The notes under the pieces: model-generated | Seen by the model: the letters and a program-made list of their open reading frames with translations, nothing else | What the model was told of the DNA's origin: nothing | Databases searched by the model: none | Assembly (NCBI RefSeq): GCF_002250115.1 | Contig: NZ_CP019985.1 | Coordinates: forward strand, 558,001-622,000 | Length of the DNA stretch: 64,000 bases | Origin: Shouchella clausii | Lineage (GTDB): Bacteria; Bacillota; Bacilli; Bacillales; Bacillaceae_D | Direction: 5' to 3' | In this document: in pieces, positions 1,775 through 45,868 of the stretch | Layout: each line of letters begins with the position of its first letter | Numbering within the stretch: position 1 is the stretch's first letter | Position numbers and translations under genes: made by a program

Positions 1775-1798
1775 AGAAAAAAGCTCTAAGAGGGCTTT
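1775..1798 (-). terminator. Terminator beyond ywiC
   Basis: Read on the minus strand, AAAGCCCTCTTAGAGCTTT folds with one mismatch and is followed by a run of T. It closes the ywiC transcript beyond the small repeat element at 1799-1895. Confidence 0.5.
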
Positions 1799-1895
1799 CA
1801 GACTGTAGACAAACGCTCGCATACGTCGTCGTTTGCCGCACTCCTCGTCTGACAAGCGTTTTCTATCAGTCTGAGTGCGGTTGTCACAAAATCAC
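1799..1895. repeat. Diverged copy of a miniature IS1182-like palindromic element
   Basis: The segment begins CAGACTGTAGACAAACGC and contains GACAAGCGTTTTCTATCAGTC, so its first part folds on itself. It is closely similar to the 99-bp element at 45750-45848 (the left end and the block TGACAAGCGTTTTCTATCAG are shared) and its left end resembles the left end of the IS at 4458. The other end (GTTGTCACAAAATCACTC) is only loosely like the IS right end. No target duplication is obvious, so this may be an old copy. The ywiC stop codon lies at its edge. Confidence 0.6.
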
Positions 1896-4395: not shown

Positions 4396-5901
4396 TTAAA
4401 AAGAAGTAGATAAATGAAGATTCAGCTTAATAAAAATAGCCGTGTAGCCCACGGCTCCAGACCGTAGACAAAACGCCTTTGAGAAAATGATTCTCAAAGG
4501 CGTTTTGTTGATGATAAAGAGATGGATGGATTTTGGAGACTTTGGAGTTGGAGGGGTGTTCTTCCTCCAACTCCAGGTGGCTAATTTTTTCAAGTTCATC
4601 GCAGCGAAAACAAGCATCGCCTGCATTGCATTTTTTTCCAACCCTTTCAGGTTGGTCCAACGCAGACCATGCTTCTGTTTCAGATCGGCAAAGACACGCT
4701 CAATCGTTTCTTTTCGCTTGGCATAGATGTCTCGGTTCCGTTCCGTATGCCTCAGATGTTCTGCCTCATCCAGAGCATCTTGCCAAATATGGCGAAGAAC
4801 GAGCTTTTGGTGGTTTTGGCTCTTTGTACATTGAGCGAGCAGTGGGCACGTCTCACAAATCCGAGGGTCGGAGACATATTCCCGGTACCCCTCTCGATTC
4901 GTCGTTCGGTAAGAAAGCACCTGGTTTTGTGGGCAGAGAAAACAATCGTAGTATTCATCATAGACAAACTCGTTTTTTCGGATATAGCCTTTAGGGGTCA
5001 TCGGGCGTTTATACGGCATAACCGGATGAACGCCTTCTTCTTGAAGTTTTTTGGCAATGGCAGGCGTTTTATAGCCCGCATCCACAGCGGCGACCTTCGG
5101 TCGGCACACCTTGTCTTTCAATTGGTCAAACAGTTCGTGGAATACTTGGCTGTCGTGGACATTCCCCGGTTTTACGATCGTACCTAAAACAAATCCATTG
5201 GCATCACAAGCGGTATGGAAACTGTAGGCAAACATCTTTTCCCGCTCGCTTTTGACGTAATAACCGCTCTCAGGATCCGTGGTACTCTCCTTGACCTCCC
5301 TCGTAGGATCTTTTTTCGAGGGAGGCAGGGGCTTTTTTCCGTTTTTCACCCGTTCCCCATTGATTTCTTCTTCTAGTTGGTTTTGATAGGCACGCGTCTC
5401 GGTGCGTACGACCTTTTTACGATGCTTTCGTTTATTGGCGTTGGCTTTAATGGAAGTCGAGTCGATAAAAGCCACCTCTGGACTCACAAATCCTTTGTCC
5501 ATAGCTTGTTTCAGAATCCGATAAAAGAGTTGTTCAAACACGTCACTGTCCCGGAAACGACGAACGTAGTTCTTCCCAAACGTAGAAAAGTGGGGAATCT
5601 TGTCCTCAAAGCCAAATCCTAAAAACCAACGGTAGGCCACATTGGTTTCGATTTCTTTAATCGTTTGGCGCATCGAACGAATCCCAAAGATGTATTGAAT
5701 GAAAACCATTTTGATTAACACCACGGGATCGACACTCGGCCGGCCCCTGTCTTTTGAATAAAGGTCTTCGACAAGGTCATAAATGAAATCAAAGTCAATC
5801 GCCGCATCAAGCTTCCGAACGAGATGATCCTCTGGCACCAGCTTTTCAATCCAGACCATCTCCATCTGCATCCGTTTATCTTCCAGCTGTTTGGACAACA
5901 T
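4396..5901 (-). CDS. IS1182-family transposase reading out of its element
   Basis: This protein of about 500 residues is a DDE transposase of the IS1182 type. It has an N-terminal DUF772-like region (RGRPSVDPVVLIKM), a catalytic Asp in AFIDSTSIKANANK, a second Asp in AAVDAGYKT, a cysteine cluster (CPQNQVLS to CPLLAQCTK) and a C-terminal ERVFADLKQKHG with the likely catalytic Glu. The start ATG 5901 follows GAGAGG. The element itself ends at 4458, but the frame has no stop inside it: the last 20 or so residues and the stop codon come from the flanking DNA. The copy looks otherwise intact. Confidence 0.9.
   Translation of the reverse strand: MLSKQLEDKRMQMEMVWIEKLVPEDHLVRKLDAAIDFDFIYDLVEDLYSKDRGRPSVDPVVLIKMVFIQYIFGIRSMRQTIKEIETNVAYRWFLGFGFEDKIPHFSTFGKNYVRRFRDSDVFEQLFYRILKQAMDKGFVSPEVAFIDSTSIKANANKRKHRKKVVRTETRAYQNQLEEEINGERVKNGKKPLPPSKKDPTREVKESTTDPESGYYVKSEREKMFAYSFHTACDANGFVLGTIVKPGNVHDSQVFHELFDQLKDKVCRPKVAAVDAGYKTPAIAKKLQEEGVHPVMPYKRPMTPKGYIRKNEFVYDEYYDCFLCPQNQVLSYRTTNREGYREYVSDPRICETCPLLAQCTKSQNHQKLVLRHIWQDALDEAEHLRHTERNRDIYAKRKETIERVFADLKQKHGLRWTNLKGLEKNAMQAMLVFAAMNLKKLATWSWRKNTPPTPKSPKSIHLFIINKTPLRIIFSKAFCLRSGAVGYTAIFIKLNLHLSTSF
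4437..4457. repeat. 21-bp target duplication, left copy (nreC terminator hairpin)
   Basis: This copy is identical to 5995-6015. The core AGCCGTG-TAGCC-CACGGCT folds as a hairpin. Read on the minus strand it is followed by ATTTTTATT, so this copy still has the T tract of a factor-independent terminator that originally served nreC. Confidence 0.7.
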
Positions 5902-5994
5902 GTTTCCTCTCACCCCGTACCCTTTTTCTCTTTTTTATTGTACAAAAAAGCCTGTCGACTGTCTCGGGAAAACCGAGACTTTGTCGACAGGCTG
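4458..5994. mobile_element. IS1182-family insertion sequence (1537 bp) in the nreC terminator
   Basis: The ends are imperfect inverted repeats: CAGACCGTAGACAAA on the left and, on the other strand, CAGCCTGTCGACAAA on the right (12 of 15 match). Outside both ends lies the same 21-bp sequence, read as a target duplication. Just inside the left end is a strong hairpin (CAAAACGCCTTTGAGAA stem), and just inside the right end a longer hairpin (AGCCTGTCGAC arms) upstream of the transposase, which could stop read-through transcription from outside. Borders were deduced from the repeats and not from another copy. Confidence 0.8.
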
Positions 5995-6015
5995 TAGCCG
6001 TGTAGCCCACGGCTC
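5995..6015. repeat. 21-bp target duplication, right copy, abutting the nreC stop
   Basis: It is identical to 4437-4457 and begins at the last base of the nreC stop codon. This copy lacks the T tract and is followed by the IS right end, so nreC termination now depends on the IS hairpin. Confidence 0.7.
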
Positions 6016-20880: not shown

Positions 20881-20959
20881 AAAACAAGGCAATTGAATAA
20901 GGCTTTGGAGTGGTCGTTCGCCCCCTTGCATGTTTTTGCTAACGAAAGGGGGTGAGGCC

Positions 20960-21043
20960 TTGACAGTATTTGACACGCTGGTTGTCACGTTTGCGGCGGC
21001 AAACTTACTCGTTGCCATACTGTCGTATAAGAAAGACAAATAA
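20960..21043 (+). CDS. Putative holin-like type I toxin, 27 residues
   Basis: The peptide reads MTVFDTLVVTFAAANLLVAI followed by LSYKKDK: a short polar N-terminus, one membrane span and a basic tail. This is the pattern of the Hol_Tox family of small hydrophobic toxins of Firmicutes type I systems. The TTG start is preceded by AAAGGGGGTG. The first 10 bases of the presumed mRNA (GGCAATTGAAT, 20888) can pair with ATTCAATTGCC at 21109-21119 near its 3' end, and CGTTCGCC with GGCGAACG, as in txpA- and bsrG-like mRNAs whose closed ends block early translation. An antisense RNA overlaps the 3' part. Confidence 0.8.
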   Translation: MTVFDTLVVTFAAANLLVAILSYKKDK

Positions 21044-21168
21044 CCACTCCTAAGCCCGGGAAGCTAGAGTGGTTATTGGAATCACTTAGGCGAACGCCCC
21101 TTTAGGGCATTCAATTGCCATTGGCCTCGGTGTTCGCGCACCAGGCCTTTTTTATCCTATGTCTTTGT
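21037..21168 (-). ncRNA. Predicted antisense antitoxin RNA
   Basis: A minus-strand promoter (TTGCGT, 17 bases, TATAAT at 21175-21203) would start an RNA near 21168 running into the 3' end of the toxin mRNA. A hairpin (AATAACCACTC arms, 21039-21077) followed by TTTGTCTTTCTT would end it. The product, about 130 bases, is fully complementary to the toxin mRNA 3' region, the arrangement of RatA/SR4-type antitoxins. No sequence database was consulted. Confidence 0.65.
21123..21153 (+). terminator. Terminator of the toxin mRNA
   Basis: GGCCT, GGTG, a TTCG-containing loop, CACC and AGGCC form a stable hairpin followed by six T residues. It defines a toxin mRNA of about 265 bases that overlaps the antisense RNA. 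Confidence 0.75.
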
Positions 21169-33587: not shown

Positions 33588-34043
33588 TTATTCGTTCATT
33601 TGCGCGGTTTTAGGAATAATATAAATCAATAAAACAGAAACGAGCACGGTGGCCACAGCTGCTAATATCCATGGCAGCACGTTTACTTTTTCTTCTGCCT
33701 GCACCACTTGGCGGGCCAACTCTTTTTCCTCTGTAAACAGCCCGGCGCTTGCGGCGAGGTTTTCCTCACGGTTTGCATCCGCACTACTCGCAAACAGGCT
33801 GTCTTGTAGTTCTGCGTATGTTTCTTCCAATGGCTGAGTAAATGTAAGTATTTTCTGTTCTTCAGGCACTCTGATTTCCCTCTGCTCCGCTTCTGGTTTG
33901 TATTGGCGCAGCTCTAACAGCACTTCCCGCTCTTTGTAAACACCAGGTTCCACTCGTTCTTCTTCGGCAAAGCTTGGAGTTGCCAAGGACAGGAGCAGCG
34001 TTACGCATGCTCCTGCCCCGGCAATGATGGCCTTACATTTCAT
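33588..34043 (-). CDS. essA: Type VII secretion protein EssA
   Basis: The 151-residue protein has an N-terminal signal-like hydrophobic segment, an extracellular Glu-rich domain (EPGVYKEREVLLEL) and a C-terminal membrane span (PWILAAVATVLVSVLLIYII), the EssA layout. The start is ATG 34043, overlapping the end of esaA by 11 bases, with GAGG nine bases upstream. EssA is a core membrane component needed for Ess secretion in Staphylococcus aureus. A longer frame to 34118 is unlikely. Confidence 0.8.
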   Translation of the reverse strand: MKCKAIIAGAGACVTLLLSLATPSFAEEERVEPGVYKEREVLLELRQYKPEAEQREIRVPEEQKILTFTQPLEETYAELQDSLFASSADANREENLAASAGLFTEEKELARQVVQAEEKVNVLPWILAAVATVLVSVLLIYIIPKTAQMNE

Positions 34044-37000
34044 AATCGTCATCCTCTTCTTTTCGGCTGTTAACGACCAAATGGCGAATGATTGGCAAAG
34101 CAATCGTTGCTGCTGCAATGAGAGCCAATGGGATCATGCCTGCGAGAAACGCATTTTGCGGGCTTGCTTGAATGGAAATGTACAGCTCCGCAATTGGGTT
34201 ATTTGTACGGAAGTTTGGCATGGCCATATCAAGAAGCGGGCTTGTAAAGAATAGAATGAACGCGACACTAAGCAGCCATCCGACCCACGGGCCCGCCATA
34301 AAGGCAACGCGGATAAGGCCAGCTGTCGCCAAAATCAAGAGGACGGTAATGATCGTCCATTGAATCGATTGGCTCTCGCTCATTGTGTAAATCGTCAGTC
34401 CATAAATGCTGATGACTAAACCAACAATGATCGATAAAATGCTAAACAACGCGATATTAACGGCAATTGGCACAGAGCTATAGTGGTGTGTCAAAAAGCC
34501 GATCAGCAAGCTCGACAATAGTACGATCACAAGAACAATGATTGGCGGCGTCATTCTTTCTGCAGGTCCTGTTACTTGCTCGCCGCTTATATCAACAGGG
34601 CTAGAAAGATGGTTATAGACATAGTCATTATGGTGCCCGTCTGACAGCGCGTTGCCAAGAATCGTGTGAATGTCCTCGTAAACAAGTTCAGTTGTTTGGA
34701 CATTGTCCGACCATCTCGAGTTTAAATCATCGGATTTGGCTTGGACTGCCGTCACATTGTTGTGTAGGTCTTCTGTTTGGGCAATAATATCGTCTTGGCG
34801 GTTGCTAAGAGACTCAACTGCTGCTCCTAATTGTTGGACTTCGCCTAATGACATTTGTTGATTGGTCACGACCATTTGCCCATTTAACCCTTCGACAGGC
34901 GCTGGTTCTGTTTCAATCGCTCCATAGCTTTCAGATAAGTTCGCTCCAATAGCGTTGCCCGTTTCTGCAATCGCCGCCACTTCTTCGCGAATCGCTTGTT
35001 GTTCTTCAGCAATTGCTTGTTCTAACTCGTTCAGCACGTTGTTTGCATCGGTGATAAATTGATTAAATTCTGCTTCTGCTTCCTCAACCGATTGTTGGGC
35101 TTCTTCCAATTGCGTTCGCTTGCCCATAAACGAATCGACTGATTGCCGCGCCTCGTCAATTTTTTCCTGAACCTCGCGGACACGGTTGTCTTCATCGACA
35201 ATTTGCTTAATCCGGTCTTGATTCAAGTAGCCTTGCTGGCTGTATGCCCAATCCAATTTGGCCAGCTCGCCGTAATAGGTAAGCAGTTCCCGTACATTTG
35301 TCGACTGAATCGGACTGTTAATAACGGACGGAGATGCGCCTATACGGTTGAAAACGGCTTGTTCTTGCTTGTGAACTTCCTCGATGACTGGATCAATCAC
35401 TTGCGCTTCCAGTTTCTCCACATACTTTTCCAAACGCGTTGCATAACGTTCCAGTTTTTCGACATATTCGAGGAACGCCTCGGTCACTTCTCGATGGTCA
35501 TCGATTTTCCATTGTGCCACTTCTAACGTTGGCTCCATACTATCAAGGAGCTCCATTGCTTCTTCCCAAACGATTTGCAGTTCTTCCGGAGTAAAAGTGA
35601 CAAGTTGGGCATGGAATGGCGTAAAGGAGAGCGCTTCCTCTCTGTCTCCATCTTGTTCGCCATCTCCTGCTGGCGGCTCTTGCTCAGGATCCCCGTCTCC
35701 GTCGCCATCTCCACCGCCATTGCCGTCTCCATCGCTATCTTCATCTTCAGGAGGCTCTGTTGGCTCTGGCGGGGGTTCCTCTCCACCGTTTCCATCGTCA
35801 TCGCCGTCTCCTGGTTCTGGTGGTGTAGGCTGTTCATTATCGTCGCCGTCACCACCGTCGCCGTCACCGCCATCTCCGTCCCCATCGCCTGGCTCAGGTT
35901 CTGGTGGCGGCGGCTCTGGAAATTCAATTTCTTCAGGGTTTAACTTGCCGACTAGCTTTTCAATCTCGGCAATCGTTTCTTCTGCGTCTTTCAGTAGGTC
36001 TTCGTCAATCGGCTCTAGTGCTTCCTCTGGTTGTTCAGGGCGAGGGATGTTCTGTGGAGGCCGCTCGTCCTTTGACAAATGCCGGCGCACACTTAACGTT
36101 TGCCGAAACTGAGCTTCTGCCCGTTCTCCTTGCGTCGCATTTGCATATTTTCCAATCAGTTCAGCCTGTGCATTTGGCAGCCGATCGACGGCTAAATCTT
36201 GGGCAGCATATACTTGGTTTATTTCGCTATTAAACCCATTCATTTCGCCATTAAACTTATAGGCGCCGATTGCCCAATCGTCAAACAAAGAAACCACTTT
36301 GTCGCCTTCATTGGAAAGCTGTGGCGCAAACGCATGCTGGCCTTCCTGGACGTTGCCGCTCCCTGCCTGCAATGTCTGTTGATAGTCAGCCACTGCTTGG
36401 TTGACAAGCTCCCCATTTTGAGCGTTCGCTTGCACCATCATCTCCGTTTGCTCATTATGGTAAGCCATGTAGGTATCAATCGCATTGGTAAGTTCATCAA
36501 AGCCGGCTTGCGCTTCTTCTAAACTAGTGCGAGAGCTTTCCGACAAATTGACAGTGTCCGAAGAAGTAGCGAATAACTGGTCAAGACGGCCTCGCTGCGT
36601 TTCAATTTCATCTGCCAATTCTTGTGAACTTGGTGAGTAAAATGAATACATTTCATTTAGGAAATCGACTTCCTTTTGTAGCACTTCATCAAAGTTGTTT
36701 CGAACTCGGTCGACTTCCTCAGACACATAGCGCCAATATTGGGTGCTAATTTGCTGGTTCATTTTTAGCTGCGCACTCTCTAGCTCTTTTTGCACCCGCT
36801 CTTGGTTTTCTGCATTTAAGTTATTATAAATTTCATATTGTACACTGGCCCGGTTCGGCAGTGAATCTTGAAAAGACATAATGTTCTCGGAAAAAGAGGA
36901 GTCAATATAAACGATCGCATCATATTCCTGATTGGCTAGTCCTGCTTGGGCAGAGGCCCTGCTAGCCACTACCCATTCGTATTCCGAGTCACCTTGCAAT

Positions 37001-37203
37001 GTTGGCACAATATCATTTCCTAAAATAAGTGGTTCATTCTCCTCATATTGGTACCCTTTGTCCTCATTGACAATCACGATCTTGCCAGACGCTTTTTTTT
37101 CTTCACGCATCGGTTCTTTCCCGATGTACTGAAAAAAGGCAAACGGTACGGCGATGATGATTGCCACAAGCAACAACAGTTTTAACATATGTTTTTTCTG
37201 CAA
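34033..37203 (-). CDS. esaA: Type VII secretion protein EsaA (YueB-like), with Gly/Asp/Pro-rich insert
   Basis: This 1056-residue membrane protein has one N-terminal span (KLLLLVAIIIAVPFAFFQYI), a very long extracellular part and six C-terminal spans from about residue 830. B. subtilis YueB, the same family, is the receptor of phage SPP1. Within the extracellular part, roughly residues 420-520 are an acidic run of Asp-Gly, Glu-Pro and Asn repeats, flanked by coiled-coil-like helices. The insert probably reaches through the wall. It starts at TTG 37203 after GAGGTGG and lies between essC and essA. Confidence 0.9.
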   Translation of the reverse strand: MQKKHMLKLLLLVAIIIAVPFAFFQYIGKEPMREEKKASGKIVIVNEDKGYQYEENEPLILGNDIVPTLQGDSEYEWVVASRASAQAGLANQEYDAIVYIDSSFSENIMSFQDSLPNRASVQYEIYNNLNAENQERVQKELESAQLKMNQQISTQYWRYVSEEVDRVRNNFDEVLQKEVDFLNEMYSFYSPSSQELADEIETQRGRLDQLFATSSDTVNLSESSRTSLEEAQAGFDELTNAIDTYMAYHNEQTEMMVQANAQNGELVNQAVADYQQTLQAGSGNVQEGQHAFAPQLSNEGDKVVSLFDDWAIGAYKFNGEMNGFNSEINQVYAAQDLAVDRLPNAQAELIGKYANATQGERAEAQFRQTLSVRRHLSKDERPPQNIPRPEQPEEALEPIDEDLLKDAEETIAEIEKLVGKLNPEEIEFPEPPPPEPEPGDGDGDGGDGDGGDGDDNEQPTPPEPGDGDDDGNGGEEPPPEPTEPPEDEDSDGDGNGGGDGDGDGDPEQEPPAGDGEQDGDREEALSFTPFHAQLVTFTPEELQIVWEEAMELLDSMEPTLEVAQWKIDDHREVTEAFLEYVEKLERYATRLEKYVEKLEAQVIDPVIEEVHKQEQAVFNRIGASPSVINSPIQSTNVRELLTYYGELAKLDWAYSQQGYLNQDRIKQIVDEDNRVREVQEKIDEARQSVDSFMGKRTQLEEAQQSVEEAEAEFNQFITDANNVLNELEQAIAEEQQAIREEVAAIAETGNAIGANLSESYGAIETEPAPVEGLNGQMVVTNQQMSLGEVQQLGAAVESLSNRQDDIIAQTEDLHNNVTAVQAKSDDLNSRWSDNVQTTELVYEDIHTILGNALSDGHHNDYVYNHLSSPVDISGEQVTGPAERMTPPIIVLVIVLLSSLLIGFLTHHYSSVPIAVNIALFSILSIIVGLVISIYGLTIYTMSESQSIQWTIITVLLILATAGLIRVAFMAGPWVGWLLSVAFILFFTSPLLDMAMPNFRTNNPIAELYISIQASPQNAFLAGMIPLALIAAATIALPIIRHLVVNSRKEEDDDYEM

Positions 37204-37228
37204 TTAAACCACCTCGCTTGTTCTCCCT

Positions 37229-40200
37229 TTATGGAGCTTCCGGTATTTTGATTTTCGTCTCGATTCCATTGACGACATAGTAGCCAAAACCTGGGGCAAT
37301 CTCTTCTTCATTTCGCGTGAACGAAAGATTGACAAGGGTTTGGTCTGACTTTTTCATGACGATGATATAGTGGCGCACCAACTTCAATTCTGCAGTAAGA
37401 GGATCGAAGCCTTTCGTAAATTCTACGGAATTGCCGCACACAATCATACGAAAGCCTAAATGGCTCGAATTTTTCATTAGCTTCGCCAATTTATCTTGAA
37501 TGGCCGCATCAACCGTTTGTTGGAAGCGAATTAGGCTGTCGATTAATAACAGCACTGGCGCAAAAGCTGGAACCGTTTCTCCATTGTTTAACGCGTCCAT
37601 GTAAGCTTGTTCCCGAACAGCCATTTTTTCTTCAACGGCTGACACCCAGTCTTTAATCTGTTCTTTTTGGTCTATATAGGAAATAAGCTTCTGTCCGACA
37701 AATGCAGACAGCTTGCGGTCTGTGCCGTCAAATAGTCCAATCTCGTCAACTTCCTGTTGCAAATAGTAGTTTAATAGTACTTTGGCAACGTTCGTCTTTC
37801 CTTTCCGCGGCTGGCCGACAACTAACAAATGAGGCTCTGACTTCGTTTGAAGGAATACGGGCTTGACCGTATCTTCGTCAAGGGCAAAGGGAATGCTGTC
37901 GCCTGGATCGCCAACACGCGTTTGGAAAGAAGCCAGCGATAGCTGTGTAGGCAGCATCGCAATTTTTTCCGGCAGCTTGGCGTCTTGATAACGCTGGCCT
38001 AAATCGGCAATCGTGTTTCTTGTTGCTGCCATCATTTCCTGGTCATCTTCACCGGCTTCTGGCAAATACATTTGCGCAAAATAATGGCTGTCTTTCGCTA
38101 AAATGGCGCGGCCAGGTATCGGTTCGATTTCGTACTTGCTGCGGCCGAGCAGCGTGATAACATCGTTTCGGTCGTTCATAAAGTGGACGATCTTTGTTTT
38201 CATTGTATTCATAAGTGGCTGACGCAAAGCATTTGCCCGCGTCGCTGTTAGGCTTACGTAAATTCCTAGAGACTGGCCATCACGGGCAAATTGGATAAAG
38301 GTTGATTCCAACTGCTCGTATTCTTCCTTGATTAAATCAAAGTTGTCAATGAACATAAATAGAACAGGCAATGGCTCTGTTGCTGTTTGGTTATACATCG
38401 TCAAACTATTGACTTCTTGAGCCAGGAACCGTTCGCGGCGATCGTCCATCTCCGCTTTTAGCAAGGCAATGGCCTTTTCGATTTTGCGTTTTTCATCGAT
38501 TTTAAAGTAATCGGCTGTATGAGGAAGTTGCCTAAACGGCAACAACGCGCCATTCCCAAAATCAAAAATGTAAAAGTGAAGTGCTTCTGGGCTAAACGAC
38601 TTTGCAAACTGGAGCATCAATGCCATAAGCGTTGTCGATTTTCCGTAACCGCCAGAGCCAAATACAGCAATATTGCCGTCTTTTAGCCATTCATAATAAA
38701 CATTGAATTGCCTTTGTTCCTCTGGCTCATCAGCAAGCGCCAACGGGAACATGCCCACCTCTGTATCTGGTTGCACAGGGGGGAGCCATTCTTCAAGAGG
38801 GTCAAGCCATGGGCTTGAGGCTTTTTGAATGCACAGACGTTCAGTTGTCGCTTCAATCTCTTTAACAACAGCTTCAATTTCAGAGATGCTCTTTTGTTTT
38901 TTCCCAGTAGCAGCCTGGACGTTGGAAATGGGCACTAAGCCTGCATCAGTGACTAACGCCACATCTTCCTCGCCTTCATGGGTTTCGCGTAAATACGGCG
39001 CCCCGCTCCATGCGGACTGGAACAATTCATACAGCTCGTTATTGCCGACTTGCAAATAGGCGCGCCCTGTTACCGTCAAATTGGCGGCATCGGGATTTTT
39101 CAGAATTTCTTTAGAATCTAGAGCATCTTGCACTTTTAATGCGACTCGGAAGCGGGCGTTACTCCAAATTTGGTTGTCGATAATTCCGCCTGGCTTTTGT
39201 GTGGCAAGAATGAGGTGGACGCCAAGGCTACGCCCGATCCGCGCTGCACTTACGAGTTCTTTAATAAATTCAGGTTCCTCGTTTTTCAATTCCGCAAATT
39301 CATCAGATATGATAAACAGATGTGGCATCGGTTCCAATACCTGCTTCTGTTTATACAACTCCATATAATCATCGATATGGTTAACTAAGTTTTGGTCAAA
39401 CAGCCGCTGCCGCTTGCGCAGTTCGCTTTTGATCGACGCCAACGCCCGCATACTAAAGTTCTTGCTGTCGTTGATGTTGGTAATGGTGCCGAGCAAATGG
39501 GGAATATTTTTAAACGGCTGTGCCATCCCCCCACCTTTGTAGTCAATGAGAAGAAAAGCAACTTCGTGGGGATGGTAATGGACTGCTAACGATAAAATAT
39601 ACGTTTGCAGAAATTCACTTTTTCCCGAACCCGTTGTCCCTGCAAGCAAACCATGGGGGCCATGGGCCTTTTCATGGATGTTCAGCTCAAGAAGTTCATC
39701 CTTTGCTTTAAATCCGACGGGCACAGCGAGCGACTCGGCGCTGTTTGTCGTTTGCCACCGTTGTTCAATAGCAAGTTCTTTTGTATGCTGGACGCCAAAC
39801 ATTTCGAGAAAAGACGCCATCTCCGGGATAGAACGGCTCATGCCTCGTTGGTGGTTCAATGATGCCAGCAAGCGGGCATACCTTTCATTTGTCGTTGCAT
39901 CCTGAGGATCAAAGGTAAAGCGTTTATGCTCCGCTTTCCGTTCCCGGATGACAATCTCGCCTTCTTTTTGGTTAACAACCTTGACGATCGTATGGACATA
40001 CTCGGTTAAATTTTCTTGTGCATCGGTGAGAAAAATAACCGACATGCCAAGCACTTTATCCGGGCCTTCCAAATATTCCATGATGGCATGGTCGCTTATC
40101 AAACTGCGATTAGCGACTAAAAAGACAAAGTGAGGGATGAAACGCTTTGGCTTGTCTTGGCTTTGTTCCAACTCCCGCTCCCGCACCATTTCATAAATCG

Positions 40201-41653
40201 ATGTCAATAGTTGGTCTCGTGTCCGCTCATTGTAAATAAACCCTTTCGCGTACATGTGCGGCAATTGAAAATGAGGGAGCCATTTCATCCATTCCCAATT
40301 TGCATACTGATCTTCGCTGAAAACAGCAACGAAACGAAGGTCATGGTAGCTTTGAAAAAAGGCAAGTTGCCCAACCATTTGAGCGACTTCCCGCTGTACC
40401 GTCTTCAGCTGGCCGACATAGCCAATGGAACCGCTCGCTAAGCTAAGGCTAAGGGGCGTATCATTAATATGAGAATAATGCTCTTTTAACTTTTCGCCTT
40501 CTTCTAGCAGCTCGTCACGATCTCGATTCGCTAAATCGCCACCTGGATCGGCAATCTGAAAACTTATCGGGATCGACGATTTCCCAACACGGACATGCAT
40601 AAAATCATCGTCGCCAACGGTTTTCTCCCAGATACGGCCATTCAAGTTAGCTGCCATATATTTATTTTCCTCAAACGACGGAAAATGGTAATCAAGTACA
40701 TGCCGTTGTTTGTCGGCCATTTCCTGGAGTTCGACGCGCTTTTCCTTCAAGTAGCGTGTATAAACACGTTGCCGTTTTTCCTCTTTTTGCTTGCGGATTT
40801 TCCGCTCGCGAAAATAGTTGACGGTCGAAGTGATCAGCGTTACGGTGAACATGGTGGCCGAAATAATGATAAAAATGCCCCGAGGGATGAGCAATGCGAC
40901 AATTCCCATGACAATGAGCATCGCTAACGGCGGCAATACGATGAGCCAGAGGGCACGATGATTATCGTCCAACTCCTGACCTGGAATGGAGAAAGTCACC
41001 CGGTCTTTTGGCTCTTCATAAATAATCCGCGGCGTCCGCCTGTATTCAGGGTATTTTTTTTTGCTTTCTGAAGTAGGAACCGCTATGCGCGCGAGTCGCG
41101 TTTGCAAAGAATCGCTTGATTCAATTGCCAATAAGTCGCCTTCTTTAATGACAAGCGCTGTATAGCCAAGCAATAGCACATCGCCATTCTTTAACGGTTG
41201 CTTGTTTGTAAGGGCTTCGCCATTTACAAATGCATGACTGTGCTTTTCTGGATAAGCAAACCAATTGCCGCCTTTCTTTATGAGCGTACAAGAGGCTGAA
41301 GGCTTCTCACTAGGCAAGACAATGTCGGCTGATTCCTCTGGCCCAATGGAAAGGAACGTTTCTTCACCAATAAAATACATCCGTTCGCTTGCCGCTTCGT
41401 CTTTATACACAAATGTGACGGCAGCGTCATTTTCTTTATACTGGAATGATTCACCAGCCGCTAAAATTTGCTCGCCTGCTCCTTCTATGTCAAGCACACA
41501 TTGCTTTTGGCCACTTACCATTTTTGCGCGGATTTTAGCATGCAGAGGCGGAACGAGCAAATCAACGTCCTCGCTTGCGCCCAACAAACGCTCAGTTTGG
41601 CTTAAGTCAAGCTGCTGTACATACGAATCATAAAATACCCACAGTCTATCCAT
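37229..41653 (-). CDS. essC: Type VII secretion ATPase EssC (YukBA)
   Basis: EssC is the motor of the secretion system. The 1474-residue protein has two FHA-like domains in residues 1-190 (MYFIGEETFLSIGPEES), two membrane spans at about 230-275 and then FtsK/SpoIIIE ATPase domains. Walker A motifs are GTTGSGKSE at about 671, GSGGYGKST at about 1004 and a weaker GQPRKGKTN at about 1284. The first Walker B is at HLFIISDEFAELK. YukB and YukA are fused in one frame, as in current B. subtilis annotation. AGGAGATGG precedes the start. Confidence 0.96.
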   Translation of the reverse strand: MDRLWVFYDSYVQQLDLSQTERLLGASEDVDLLVPPLHAKIRAKMVSGQKQCVLDIEGAGEQILAAGESFQYKENDAAVTFVYKDEAASERMYFIGEETFLSIGPEESADIVLPSEKPSASCTLIKKGGNWFAYPEKHSHAFVNGEALTNKQPLKNGDVLLLGYTALVIKEGDLLAIESSDSLQTRLARIAVPTSESKKKYPEYRRTPRIIYEEPKDRVTFSIPGQELDDNHRALWLIVLPPLAMLIVMGIVALLIPRGIFIIISATMFTVTLITSTVNYFRERKIRKQKEEKRQRVYTRYLKEKRVELQEMADKQRHVLDYHFPSFEENKYMAANLNGRIWEKTVGDDDFMHVRVGKSSIPISFQIADPGGDLANRDRDELLEEGEKLKEHYSHINDTPLSLSLASGSIGYVGQLKTVQREVAQMVGQLAFFQSYHDLRFVAVFSEDQYANWEWMKWLPHFQLPHMYAKGFIYNERTRDQLLTSIYEMVRERELEQSQDKPKRFIPHFVFLVANRSLISDHAIMEYLEGPDKVLGMSVIFLTDAQENLTEYVHTIVKVVNQKEGEIVIRERKAEHKRFTFDPQDATTNERYARLLASLNHQRGMSRSIPEMASFLEMFGVQHTKELAIEQRWQTTNSAESLAVPVGFKAKDELLELNIHEKAHGPHGLLAGTTGSGKSEFLQTYILSLAVHYHPHEVAFLLIDYKGGGMAQPFKNIPHLLGTITNINDSKNFSMRALASIKSELRKRQRLFDQNLVNHIDDYMELYKQKQVLEPMPHLFIISDEFAELKNEEPEFIKELVSAARIGRSLGVHLILATQKPGGIIDNQIWSNARFRVALKVQDALDSKEILKNPDAANLTVTGRAYLQVGNNELYELFQSAWSGAPYLRETHEGEEDVALVTDAGLVPISNVQAATGKKQKSISEIEAVVKEIEATTERLCIQKASSPWLDPLEEWLPPVQPDTEVGMFPLALADEPEEQRQFNVYYEWLKDGNIAVFGSGGYGKSTTLMALMLQFAKSFSPEALHFYIFDFGNGALLPFRQLPHTADYFKIDEKRKIEKAIALLKAEMDDRRERFLAQEVNSLTMYNQTATEPLPVLFMFIDNFDLIKEEYEQLESTFIQFARDGQSLGIYVSLTATRANALRQPLMNTMKTKIVHFMNDRNDVITLLGRSKYEIEPIPGRAILAKDSHYFAQMYLPEAGEDDQEMMAATRNTIADLGQRYQDAKLPEKIAMLPTQLSLASFQTRVGDPGDSIPFALDEDTVKPVFLQTKSEPHLLVVGQPRKGKTNVAKVLLNYYLQQEVDEIGLFDGTDRKLSAFVGQKLISYIDQKEQIKDWVSAVEEKMAVREQAYMDALNNGETVPAFAPVLLLIDSLIRFQQTVDAAIQDKLAKLMKNSSHLGFRMIVCGNSVEFTKGFDPLTAELKLVRHYIIVMKKSDQTLVNLSFTRNEEEIAPGFGYYVVNGIETKIKIPEAP

Positions 41654-41676
41654 TGTTCCATCTCCTACGTGCGCAC

Positions 41677-42987
41677 TTACTCATCTGCGTTCTCCTCTTC
41701 CTCGTTTTGCTCAGGCTCGTCCTCGTGCTCGTTTTCTTCGCCATCTTCCGAACGCTCTTCGCTTTGCTCTGGCTCTTCTTCAGTTGCATTGTCATCAGCA
41801 GGAGCGTCCGCTTCTTCCTCCGCTTCCCGTTCTTGTTGCTCTCGCATATAACGGTCAATATCAGCTTGAATATCGTTAAGCAATTCTTCACGCTCATCTC
41901 CTGACAAGCTAAGATCTTGGCGAATGGCATCACGCCACTTTAAATTCGCATACATTTCTAGCTCTCCGTCCTGCAACTGGCGAGCAATTTCATTGGCTTC
42001 CTCATGTTCACCGCGGCCAATGGCAATCCAATATTGGAAATAAAGCTCTTCAGCTTGAAGCGTCAACGTATTTTGCACATTTGCCGTCTGATCCATGTTC
42101 AAGTCTTCATTAGCAACATACGATTGAGCCAACTGGTACTGGACAACGCGGGGCATTTGGCTCGGGTTATATGGTTCCAATGCAGTAATGACATCGCTTG
42201 GCTTGCTGTTAATATAGGCCTCATTGCTGGCAATAAAGGCGTCGTGACGCGGATGAAGGAAAAAAAGCGCATAGACGGTAAAAACAATAGCCGGAATAAG
42301 CAGTCCTGTAACAGCAAAAAACAAGCTTTTTTGCAAGCGCCATTTTTGCTTTGGCACCATATGCATCTGGCTAGCGCGTCGCTCTTCTTCTTGGATCCAT
42401 GTCTCTACACAGCTCAAAAGCGCTTCGATTGTATCAGCCTCTAGCAATTTTTTTGCTCTTGCCGACAATTTCATTGTGTCCGTAAAATTCATGTACTCAA
42501 CAAAGCGATACTCGCCATCAAGCAACACAAGCAACGTTGTCTTAAGCTCAGCAAACAGCTTTTCTTCGTTCTTTTCATATGGCGGGAGGCTTTCTTTAAT
42601 GCCATAATGGATAAAGTGAACATCAAGCCCCTCTGTTACTAATAAGTTCTCCGGACAGACAATTAAATGCAGCCTGGAACTGTGATGCTCGGCAACCGCG
42701 CGAATAAGTGAGTGGCCAATGATTTGTTTGGCGTAATCGCCTTTTTTCCGAAACTTGCTAAAAGGCTGCATTGTCTCTTGCGGATGAACGGTAATGACAA
42801 GCTCATCTTCTGCTTCAGCAATTGTACGCTCGAGCAGCGGATCTTGTTGTTTTAACAACTCCGCTTCTAGCGAATTCGACAGCTTTATTTCTGCGGTTTG
42901 AAATGTTAATGTATATGTATTCGATTCTGCGTCCCTGTAAAAAGCTGCACCTGTTTGTTCTTCTAAATAAAATCGCTTCTTCTCCAT
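41677..42987 (-). CDS. essB: Type VII secretion protein EssB (YukC)
   Basis: The 436-residue protein has an N-terminal pseudokinase-like cytoplasmic domain (residues 1-215), one membrane span (LFFAVTGLLIPAIVFTVYAL) and an extracellular helical domain. The tail is strongly acidic (repeats of EE, EQ, ED). EssB/YukC bridges EssC and the other membrane parts. ATG 42987 is chosen, with AAGGGG about 11 bases upstream; the frame extends to 43011. It lies 26 bases after yukD and before essC. Confidence 0.92.
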   Translation of the reverse strand: MEKKRFYLEEQTGAAFYRDAESNTYTLTFQTAEIKLSNSLEAELLKQQDPLLERTIAEAEDELVITVHPQETMQPFSKFRKKGDYAKQIIGHSLIRAVAEHHSSRLHLIVCPENLLVTEGLDVHFIHYGIKESLPPYEKNEEKLFAELKTTLLVLLDGEYRFVEYMNFTDTMKLSARAKKLLEADTIEALLSCVETWIQEEERRASQMHMVPKQKWRLQKSLFFAVTGLLIPAIVFTVYALFFLHPRHDAFIASNEAYINSKPSDVITALEPYNPSQMPRVVQYQLAQSYVANEDLNMDQTANVQNTLTLQAEELYFQYWIAIGRGEHEEANEIARQLQDGELEMYANLKWRDAIRQDLSLSGDEREELLNDIQADIDRYMREQQEREAEEEADAPADDNATEEEPEQSEERSEDGEENEHEDEPEQNEEEENADE

Positions 42988-43013
42988 TGCATGTCCGACC
43001 CCTTCAACCAATG

Positions 43014-43253
43014 CTATAAGATTTCCAAGCGGTCTCCATTTGTTACACCACGTTCAGCAAGTATTTGGCTCCCGTAGACATGAGTTTCTTTGTTTTGGAC
43101 ACGGATCCAGCTCCCATCACGCCGTGGAACTTCCAGCTTCTCAATGCCCCAAACGAGATCAATGACTTTTTTGACTGTATATTGATCAGAGAGGCGCAAA
43201 TCAAACCGTTTCCCTGAGTATCGGTTCATGTCAACTGTTACAGTGATGTACAT
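43014..43253 (-). CDS. yukD: Ubiquitin-like type VII protein EsaB/YukD
   Basis: YukD has a ubiquitin-like fold and modulates type VII secretion. The 79-residue product equals the usual length and has the family pattern YITVTVDMNRYSGKRFDLRL and ITNGDRLEIL-like end (TNGDRLEIL). ATG 43253 follows AAAGGGTGG by seven bases. It is between esxA and essB in the canonical order. Confidence 0.93.
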   Translation of the reverse strand: MYITVTVDMNRYSGKRFDLRLSDQYTVKKVIDLVWGIEKLEVPRRDGSWIRVQNKETHVYGSQILAERGVTNGDRLEIL

Positions 43254-43277
43254 CAAATGCCACCCTTTCATAAGGAA

Positions 43278-43303
43278 GGACGCAATTGTAAGGAATTGCG
43301 TCC
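43278..43303 (-). terminator. Hairpin between esxA and yukD
   Basis: GGACGCAATT and AATTGCGTCC form a perfect ten-bp stem with a six-base loop, followed by TTCCTTA only. It is probably a partial terminator or 3' stabiliser that keeps esxA transcripts in excess over the machinery genes. Confidence 0.6.
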
Positions 43304-43327
43304 CAAGATGTTTCTATTCGTCGCCAA

Positions 43328-43621
43328 TTAACCGCGAATGTTGCCCGCGATTTGTTGGTCTGTTTCTTCAAGTGTCCGTCCGCTGTTGCGAAGCTGTTCA
43401 GATACTTCGCCAAGCAAGTCGCCCATGCGGACAAAGGATGGCTTCAATTCATCGTACTGTTGAATGAACGCCTCTGAAGCTTGGCCATCCCACATTCCTT
43501 GAAGCTGGTCTCTGTAACCATCTAATCTGCTCACGAGATCATGGATCTCGCCACTTGAGCGGTTGTAATCATCAGCTTTTTGGTAAAGTTCTTCTGGAGT
43601 AACGCGAATAAGTCCAGACAT
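43328..43621 (-). CDS. esxA: WXG100 protein EsxA (YukE)
   Basis: EsxA/YukE is the small exported substrate that marks type VII systems. The 97-residue helical hairpin has the turn motif WDG (GMWDGQASEAF) at residues 43-45 and a C-terminal YxxxD/E-like signal region near the end of helix two. AAGGAGGG precedes ATG 43621. It is the first gene of the operon esxA-yukD-essB-essC-esaA-essA. Confidence 0.96.
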   Translation of the reverse strand: MSGLIRVTPEELYQKADDYNRSSGEIHDLVSRLDGYRDQLQGMWDGQASEAFIQQYDELKPSFVRMGDLLGEVSEQLRNSGRTLEETDQQIAGNIRG

Positions 43622-45734: not shown

Positions 45735-45749
45735 AAGGGGCACAAGGCC
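45735..45749. repeat. 15-bp target duplication, copy 1
   Basis: AAGGGGCACAAGGCC is identical to 45849-45863. It is a piece of the terminator hairpin that follows the binding-protein gene. Confidence 0.7.
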
Positions 45750-45848
45750 TTTAAGACTGTAGCCAAACGCTCGCATCCTTCGTTGTTCGTCTCGGCTGAC
45801 AAGCGTTTTCTATCAGTCTTAGTATTGTTCGACTTCGTCGACAACACT
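45750..45848. mobile_element. 99-bp miniature element with IS1182-like ends
   Basis: The element is bounded by a 15-bp direct repeat. Its left end (AAGACTGTAGCCAAACGC) resembles the IS left end at 4458 (CCAGACCGTAGACAAAACGC). Its right end on the other strand contains TGTCGACGAAGTC, against TGTCGACAAAGTC in the IS right end. Internally GACTGTAG...AAACGCT and AGCGTTTTCTATCAGTC form a hairpin. It has no coding capacity and looks like a MITE moved by an IS1182-type transposase. A diverged relative lies at 1799-1895. Confidence 0.75.
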
Positions 45849-45868
45849 AAGGGGCACAAGGCCCCTTG
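45849..45868 (-). terminator. Terminator/attenuator after the binding-protein gene
   Basis: AAGGGGC-ACAAG-GCCCCTT folds as a seven-bp hairpin just after the binding-protein stop; its first 15 bases are the right copy of the target duplication. Such intra-operon hairpins keep binding protein in excess over permeases. Confidence 0.65.

Follow-up and report, generated by a model that had tools for sequence, protein, structure and literature searches.

A miniature element of Shouchella clausii that shares its ends with an IS1182-type insertion sequence and is flanked by copies of its target hairpin

A window of 64,000 nucleotides from Shouchella clausii (contig NZ_CP019985.1, positions 558,001 to 622,000) contains a decayed and diverged miniature element of about 95 bp. 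We read it as a copy, in the short form, of a MITE family that would be mobilised by an IS1182-type DDE transposase and whose insertion would duplicate the target hairpin; we assign to this reading, based on sequence comparison, a probability of about 0.86. The family itself is a MITE family: its members are short, non-coding and multicopy, they share their ends with an insertion sequence (IS) and they are flanked by a target-site duplication with empty sites elsewhere. Both the IS1182 family and the MITE class are known, and the new point is that the duplication is the target hairpin. The features concerned are collected in Table 1, in which the tips of the miniature element are those derived from the family consensus. 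The genome of the window is called G000 and the genomes compared with it are designated likewise.

Table 1. Positions of the elements and of their hairpins in the window
Feature	Position	Strand	Remarks
Hairpin left of the second, degenerate miniature element	1780..1798	.	
Second miniature element	1799..1890	+	Right end degenerate, end approximate
Transposase ORF	4396..5913	-	NCBIfam NF033551 IS1182; extends beyond the left IS tip
Left hairpin copy at the IS, 21 bp	4437..4457	.	
IS1182-type insertion sequence, full length	4458..5994	-	Tips CAGACCGTAGACAAA and TTTGTCGACAGGCTG
Right hairpin copy at the IS, 21 bp	5995..6015	.	Identical to left; single copy in G004, G009, G011
Target hairpin, left copy	45735..45753	.	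Decayed beyond its first 15 bp; G004, G009 and G011 have one hairpin here
Miniature element, short form	45754..45848	+	Left tip AGACTGTAGCCAAACG, right tip CGACTTCGTCGACAACACT
Target hairpin, right copy	45849..45867	.	Intact; AAGGGGC-ACAAG-GCCCCTT = AAGGGGCACAAGGCCCCTT

Elsewhere in the window, an Rfam match to BsrG, a type I toxin-antitoxin RNA, was found at 20888-21145 (plus strand, 74.7 bits), and a cluster resembling type VII secretion (ESX/Yuk) was recognised at 34033-43621 (minus strand) by gene order and sequences, from ORFs only.

The miniature element, its family and its empty sites

The first-pass annotation of the window had described a MITE flanked by a 15-bp duplication. The 15-bp direct repeat AAGGGGCACAAGGCC is present, with copies at 45735-45749 and 45849-45863 and 99 bp between them, but it is the remnant of a longer duplication, that of a hairpin of about 19 bp whose left copy has decayed. 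The annotation had also placed the element in a terminator hairpin. The hairpin stands and is intact on the right, but its description as a terminator needs qualifying: it has no T-tract (GATATTC comes next on the minus strand) and it is located between a solute-binding-protein gene (Pfam SBP_bac_8) and a transport permease gene (BPD_transp_1), both on the minus strand, so that it is probably an intercistronic stem-loop and not a typical intrinsic terminator. No ORF of at least 80 amino acids overlaps positions 45754-45848 and no ORF of at least 20 amino acids lies wholly within the element, while three ORFs of 46 to 54 amino acids run across its edges.

The assignment to MITEs was borne out at the genome scale by a search of G000 with the 129-bp stretch, which yielded 67 matches to this short, multicopy sequence devoid of coding capacity. 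A core pattern of 23 bases, with up to 3 mismatches tolerated, was then searched in six genomes using the reversed pattern as a control. It matched 77 times in G000, 77 in G004, 40 in G009 and 83 in G011, and zero times in G006 and G010; the reversed control gave 0 matches in all six genomes. When the long-form consensus was used as the query, matches were found in 7 of 40 genomes, with at least 21 to 23 scored matches each in G000, G004, G006, G009 and G011, 3 matches in G010 and a weak match in G025, which belongs to another family. The long form measures 154 bp and the short form about 90 to 96 bp. Two loci (L032 and L036) carry a variant with about 37 additional internal bases, the insert being identical in both; L036 measures 191 bp. 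In G025, from another family of the order, a 167-bp element (L090) has a left end similar to that of the MITE and a 21-bp hairpin-like repeat with one mismatch between copies. Truncated MITE units were also observed head-to-tail at G011:C28:47181-47548 and G004:C4:531241-531480, which suggests tandem growth via insertion or recombination.

The flanking repeats were analysed on a G000 sample of 79 stretches (78 fetched and the window) containing 78 core matches. Both ends were found for 37 of them, the other 41 lying outside the repeat counts. Of these 37 loci, 27 carry a direct repeat that is 15 bp or longer and has no more than 2 mismatches. A hairpin at -8 kcal/mol or better spans 25 of the 27 repeats, versus 198 of 20000 length-matched segments drawn at random from the window. 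L035 and the window copy, both with damaged hairpins, miss this threshold. Using a looser test, a spanning hairpin of at least 6 bp, the corresponding figures were 27 of 37 and 201 of 2000. Among the remaining 10 loci, six exhibit hairpin-like repeats with 3 to 4 mismatches and four (L028, L032, L192 and L203) have no repeat. In the well-preserved copies, the direct repeat is the whole stem-loop, 18 to 30 bp long and with a different sequence at each site. Among relatives, the analysis covered 24 MITE loci, of which 20 had both ends; 18 of the 20 are flanked by a repeat of 15 bp or more in which no more than 3 positions mismatch. These 18 repeats come from G004, G006, G009, G011 and G025, several of them being the same site in two genomes. 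As in intrinsic terminators, the hairpin is bordered by an A-tract to its left or a T-tract to its right (4 or more of 6 positions) at 19 of 30 MITE loci, with a T-tract right in 10 of 30, an A-tract left in 13 of 30 and no clear side preference.

We compared the occupied sites with the same sites in three relatives (G004, G009 and G011). Two observations had been named by the first-pass annotation as speaking against its own reading, namely empty-site strains with both 15-bp copies and fixed positions of the element in all relatives. Instead, the three relatives all lack the element at the window MITE site and have a single hairpin there, and other MITE copies vary in presence between relatives. 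The window IS site likewise holds one hairpin in 3 of 3. For twelve further sites, the flanks were joined with one hairpin between them and compared with the relatives; at 8 of the 12, a sequence-checked single hairpin was found in at least one relative. At L040, L037, L036, L013, L019 and L029, each of the three relatives shows a single hairpin with no core of the element close by, and these hairpins differ by as many as 6 positions from those of G000. At L034 the element is missing from G011 but present in G004 and G009, while at L041 it is missing from G009 and present in the other two, G004 and G011. For the other sites, L027 is contiguous at 89% in G009 and partial in two relatives, L030 appears contiguous in three relatives from 16 bp left of the hairpin, L031 is occupied in G009 and altered in two relatives, and L042 is partial. 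At any one site, a single-hairpin allele may correspond to absence or to recombinational loss between the hairpin copies, which cannot be told apart there. At the L029 site, G004, G009 and G011 exhibit about 85 bp more on the left of the single hairpin, absent from G000 and without element core.

For the second miniature element of the window (1799-1890), a right hairpin copy was not seen, and no clean empty site was found in relatives, where other remnants occupy the site. In the G009 remnant, a CAGACTGATAGAAAA piece corresponds to the inner MITE motif in reverse complement.

The full-length IS and its kinship with the MITE

On the match of its transposase to the NF033551 model (484.7 bits for a cut-off of 270), we assign the IS of the window to the IS1182 family. 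The transposase frame is open across the entire model and also matches the Pfam families DDE_Tnp_1_6, DDE_Tnp_1 and DUF772. The terminal inverted repeats, CAGACCGTAGACAAA and CAGCCTGTCGACAAA (the reverse complement of the right tip), are identical at 12 of 15 positions. G000 harbours five copies of this IS with 95 to 100% protein identity; hairpin repeats flank four of the five, and the fifth (L050) keeps both tips, with flanks that differ from each other. Within the IS, the transposase frame meets no stop codon; in all 4 own copies checked it reads 41 to 167 bases past the tip into the target DNA, so that the insertion site determines the C-terminus of the protein. Wan et al. (PMC5678879) mention a transposase of TnSha1 that lacks a stop codon. 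Strong hairpins are predicted at both ends of the IS, at 4437-4540 (z -8.3) and 5935-6014 (z -9.3), in stretches which include the flanking target hairpin. The one at the right end faces inward with a T-run behind it, so it could stop transcription that starts outside the IS from entering the transposase gene.

Scanning public genomes with the transposase gave 66 loci, hence 71 examined with the five own copies. Both tips were found at IS distance in 54 of the 71, and 47 of these 54 exhibit a tip-anchored repeat of 19 to 36 bp: 43 of the 66 loci from other genomes and 4 of the 5 own. The 43 foreign loci were found in Anaerovorax sp. IOR16 (37), Halalkalibacter urbisdiaboli (three), Secundilactobacillus kimchicus, Fictibacillus phosphorivorans and an Oscillospiraceae genome (one each). 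The 47 repeats comprise 46 distinct sequences, L119 and L120 of Anaerovorax sp. IOR16 having the same one. Seven of the 54 loci (L116, L118, L121, L134, L172, L176 and L050) have both tips but no repeat. At 46 of the 47 IS loci, the hairpin is bordered by an A-tract left or a T-tract right as defined above, again as in intrinsic terminators (T-tract right in 39 of 47, A-tract left in 37 of 47, no clear side preference). The hairpin-length duplication spans IS copies of six Bacillota groups, with Anaerovorax supplying 37 of the 47 loci.

The likeness of the left ends of MITE and IS, proposed in the first-pass annotation, was confirmed: their consensus left tips are identical at 14 of 15 positions and share CAGAC[C/T]GTAGACAAA. 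The same is true of the right ends, to which TTTGTCGACA is common. When the proposed right-end motif TGTCGAC(A/G)AAGTC was searched with at most 1 mismatch, the window yielded two matches, one per element and both exact, while shuffled windows contained 0.06 matches on average and 0 of 100 shuffles reached 2. The similarity observed between MITE and IS is limited to the ends and the interiors look unlike, so the MITE does not seem to have arisen from this IS by a simple internal deletion. With this qualification, the proposal of a single family that targets hairpins, comprising a full-length mover and a miniature derivative, is supported by the shared ends, the hairpin duplications at both kinds of element and the single-hairpin empty sites. 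The IS1182-type transposase would then mobilise the MITE.

A search with the family model in 13 genomes of the genus gave matches at E 0.001 in 11 of them, and only G000 had matches above the cut-off (8 matches); G004, G006, G009 and G011 showed partial matches only. The MITE-rich genomes G004 (77) and G011 (83) have no IS1182 match above the cut-off in what are draft assemblies, where IS copies can drop out at contig ends. Several of the matches in G009 are located at contig ends, so that absence from draft assemblies counts for little. At other IS1182-like transposase loci of G000 (L053, L054, L057, L060 and others; 3.2 to 4.4 kb), no direct repeat of at least 12 bp was found at a spacing of 1200 to 2800 bp. 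None of the eight loci scanned is an IS carrying exactly the MITE tips; the relic L055 has the left tip CAGACCATAGACAAA.

Position of the cut in the hairpin and rival explanations

The fixed tips of the element define where each repeat begins and ends. The 77 scored repeats range from 15 to 37 bp in length and their edges track the hairpin; taken with the single-hairpin empty alleles, these lengths show that the target hairpin sets how long the duplication is. Free folding of the joined site is unusable for measuring offsets from the stem base because A/T-rich flanks pair further out. Pairing was therefore scored symmetrically about the repeat centre, with at most 2 mismatched pairs and up to 8 bp of flank visible, which dropped 12 of the 77 repeats and kept 65. 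In these 65, loops are of 3 to 8 nt and the arm between cut and loop has a mode of 10 bp, with 9 to 11 bp in 47 repeats and a range of 7 to 16. The pairing extends outward by at least 3 bp in 24 of the 65, every one of them in the IS set, and the arm is of 8 to 12 bp in 21 of these 24. The arm is not correlated with the outward pairing (rho 0.03, p 0.81, n=65). Of the 77 repeats, 67 start with A and 64 end with T. Together, these values suggest that the cut is placed at a distance measured from the loop; as terminator stems may often be about 10 bp, this claim rests mainly on the 24 repeats with extended pairing. A cut at the physical base of the stem, with which the 16 of 65 duplications ending exactly at the end of the pairing are consistent, is the less probable placement, since those same 24 repeats pair at least 3 bp further and nearly all retain an arm of 8 to 12 bp.

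Several other explanations of the elements and their flanks were considered. An ordinary target-site duplication of fixed length, about 15 bp, next to which the hairpin would be incidental, describes the window copy taken alone, with its 15 identical bp, but the left hairpin of that copy is decayed and the length variation tied to the hairpin over the 77 repeats contradicts it; we retain it at a negligible probability. Hardly more credible is a vertically inherited structured RNA regulator with the hairpins as mere neighbours. The region does fold well (z -7.2 on the minus strand) and a consensus fold exists, but presence at the same site varies between close relatives and no Rfam family reaches its gathering score at the window element. 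Among 28 distinct full-length sequences of 94% mean identity, 1 of 34 predicted pairs changed on both sides and 23 of 34 are invariant, so the pair variation neither supports nor excludes an RNA function. The sole Rfam hit in the window (BsrG) lies elsewhere, and a structural RNA was set aside, the polymorphic positions making it unlikely. We also rejected a composite element carrying its own flanking hairpins, because the hairpins vary by site and match the empty alleles, as well as tandem hairpins older than the insertion, because the empty alleles have a single hairpin.

Precise excision, by which an ancestral element would have been lost through recombination between the hairpin copies, would be favoured by long flanking direct repeats, and one site does differ between G011 and G004. 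It appears improbable given that the three relatives examined all lack the element at six sites, and a site-specific hairpin duplication presupposes insertion anyway. Somewhat less improbable, though still unlikely, is that a transposase other than the IS1182 type of G000 moves the MITE. The abundance of MITEs in G004 and G011, in whose assemblies no IS1182 transposase rises above the cut-off, and the unlike interiors of MITE and IS would fit with it; the tips shared by the two elements and the identical mode of hairpin duplication at both argue against it. Mobilisation of the MITE by the IS1182-type transposase, with duplication of the hairpin, therefore remains our preferred reading.

Proposed mechanism and relation to known systems

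On the simplest account of the preferred reading, the transposase would recognise an extruded hairpin or cruciform and transfer the two 3' ends of the element, one per strand, to the 5' side of the stem, some 10 bp or one helical turn away from the loop. Fill-in of the two single-stranded hairpin arms would then copy the hairpin to both sides. The outward flanks would be left untouched, so that transcripts from either side would meet one hairpin retaining its original downstream sequence. As each hairpin copy keeps its original outward flank, the terminator should still work in both directions, which would explain the tolerance of insertions at terminators; the copying of the hairpin probably renders the insertion harmless, and it suggests an enzyme that responds to the shape of the DNA and not to its sequence. 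As a tentative model, in which our confidence falls a little short of even, a shape-measuring DDE transposase cuts both arms about one helical turn from the loop, the geometry of loop and arms sets the duplication length, and the terminators stay working and serve as a safe harbour for the IS and the MITE family.

DDE transposases normally generate short duplications fixed by the geometry of the enzyme, and MITE duplications are usually short. The hairpin target and the 18 to 30 bp duplication described here distinguish our family from bacterial MITEs such as BOX and RUP, with which it shares a short length and multiple copies (PMC10969869). As in bacterial MITEs (PMC3049150), the ends are shared with an IS, in several cases there, and the insertions carry target-site duplications.

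Within the IS1182 family, the elements resemble IS1272 and TnSha1 of staphylococci, which belong to the same family, target hairpins, several of them terminators, and have no sequence consensus (PMC4923244, PMC5678879). Insertion of these two is reported in both orientations (PMC4923244, PMC5678879). The outcome for the hairpin differs, since it is duplicated here whereas those elements partly delete or replace it without duplication: the target hairpin of IS1272 is described as replaced (Wan 2017, PMC5678879), and the IS1272/TnSha1 hairpins as partly deleted, with five of seven sites being terminators by RNA-seq (Furi 2016, PMC4923244). Replacement of an inverted repeat, as for IS1272, does not describe our elements, which have the hairpin on both sides. 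Duplication of the whole stem-loop is drawn in Wan 2017 (PMC5678879) as a hypothetical pathway b only. Palindromic targets of some IS1182 members are attributed to Siguier 2015, as cited in PMC4923244 and PMC5678879. The variable repeat length is in line with ISfinder, for which direct repeats of 2 to 60 bp are quoted for IS1182 (PMC7335449); the quoted range comes without what sets the length, whereas here the hairpin sets it. A 4-bp repeat is tabled for ISPse1, an IS1182 member (PMC3281130), and the hairpin duplication is therefore not a behaviour of the whole IS1182 family. Among the open-licence PubMed Central papers that our searches returned, we saw none that describes whole-hairpin duplication as an observed event.

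Class C group II introns insert next to terminators by a retroelement mechanism; they are thus comparable to our elements for the insertion sites and unlike them for the mechanism, and they are not known to duplicate hairpins.

The 2 to 60 bp repeats of IS1182 thereby pass from a recorded oddity to a testable structural rule, and the present elements provide a natural case, at genome scale, for a stem-loop-duplication pathway formerly drawn as a possibility. A transposase that reads structure might serve as a tool for insertion at hairpins. For the elements themselves, the results suggest a way in which a mobile element may colonise terminators at low cost.
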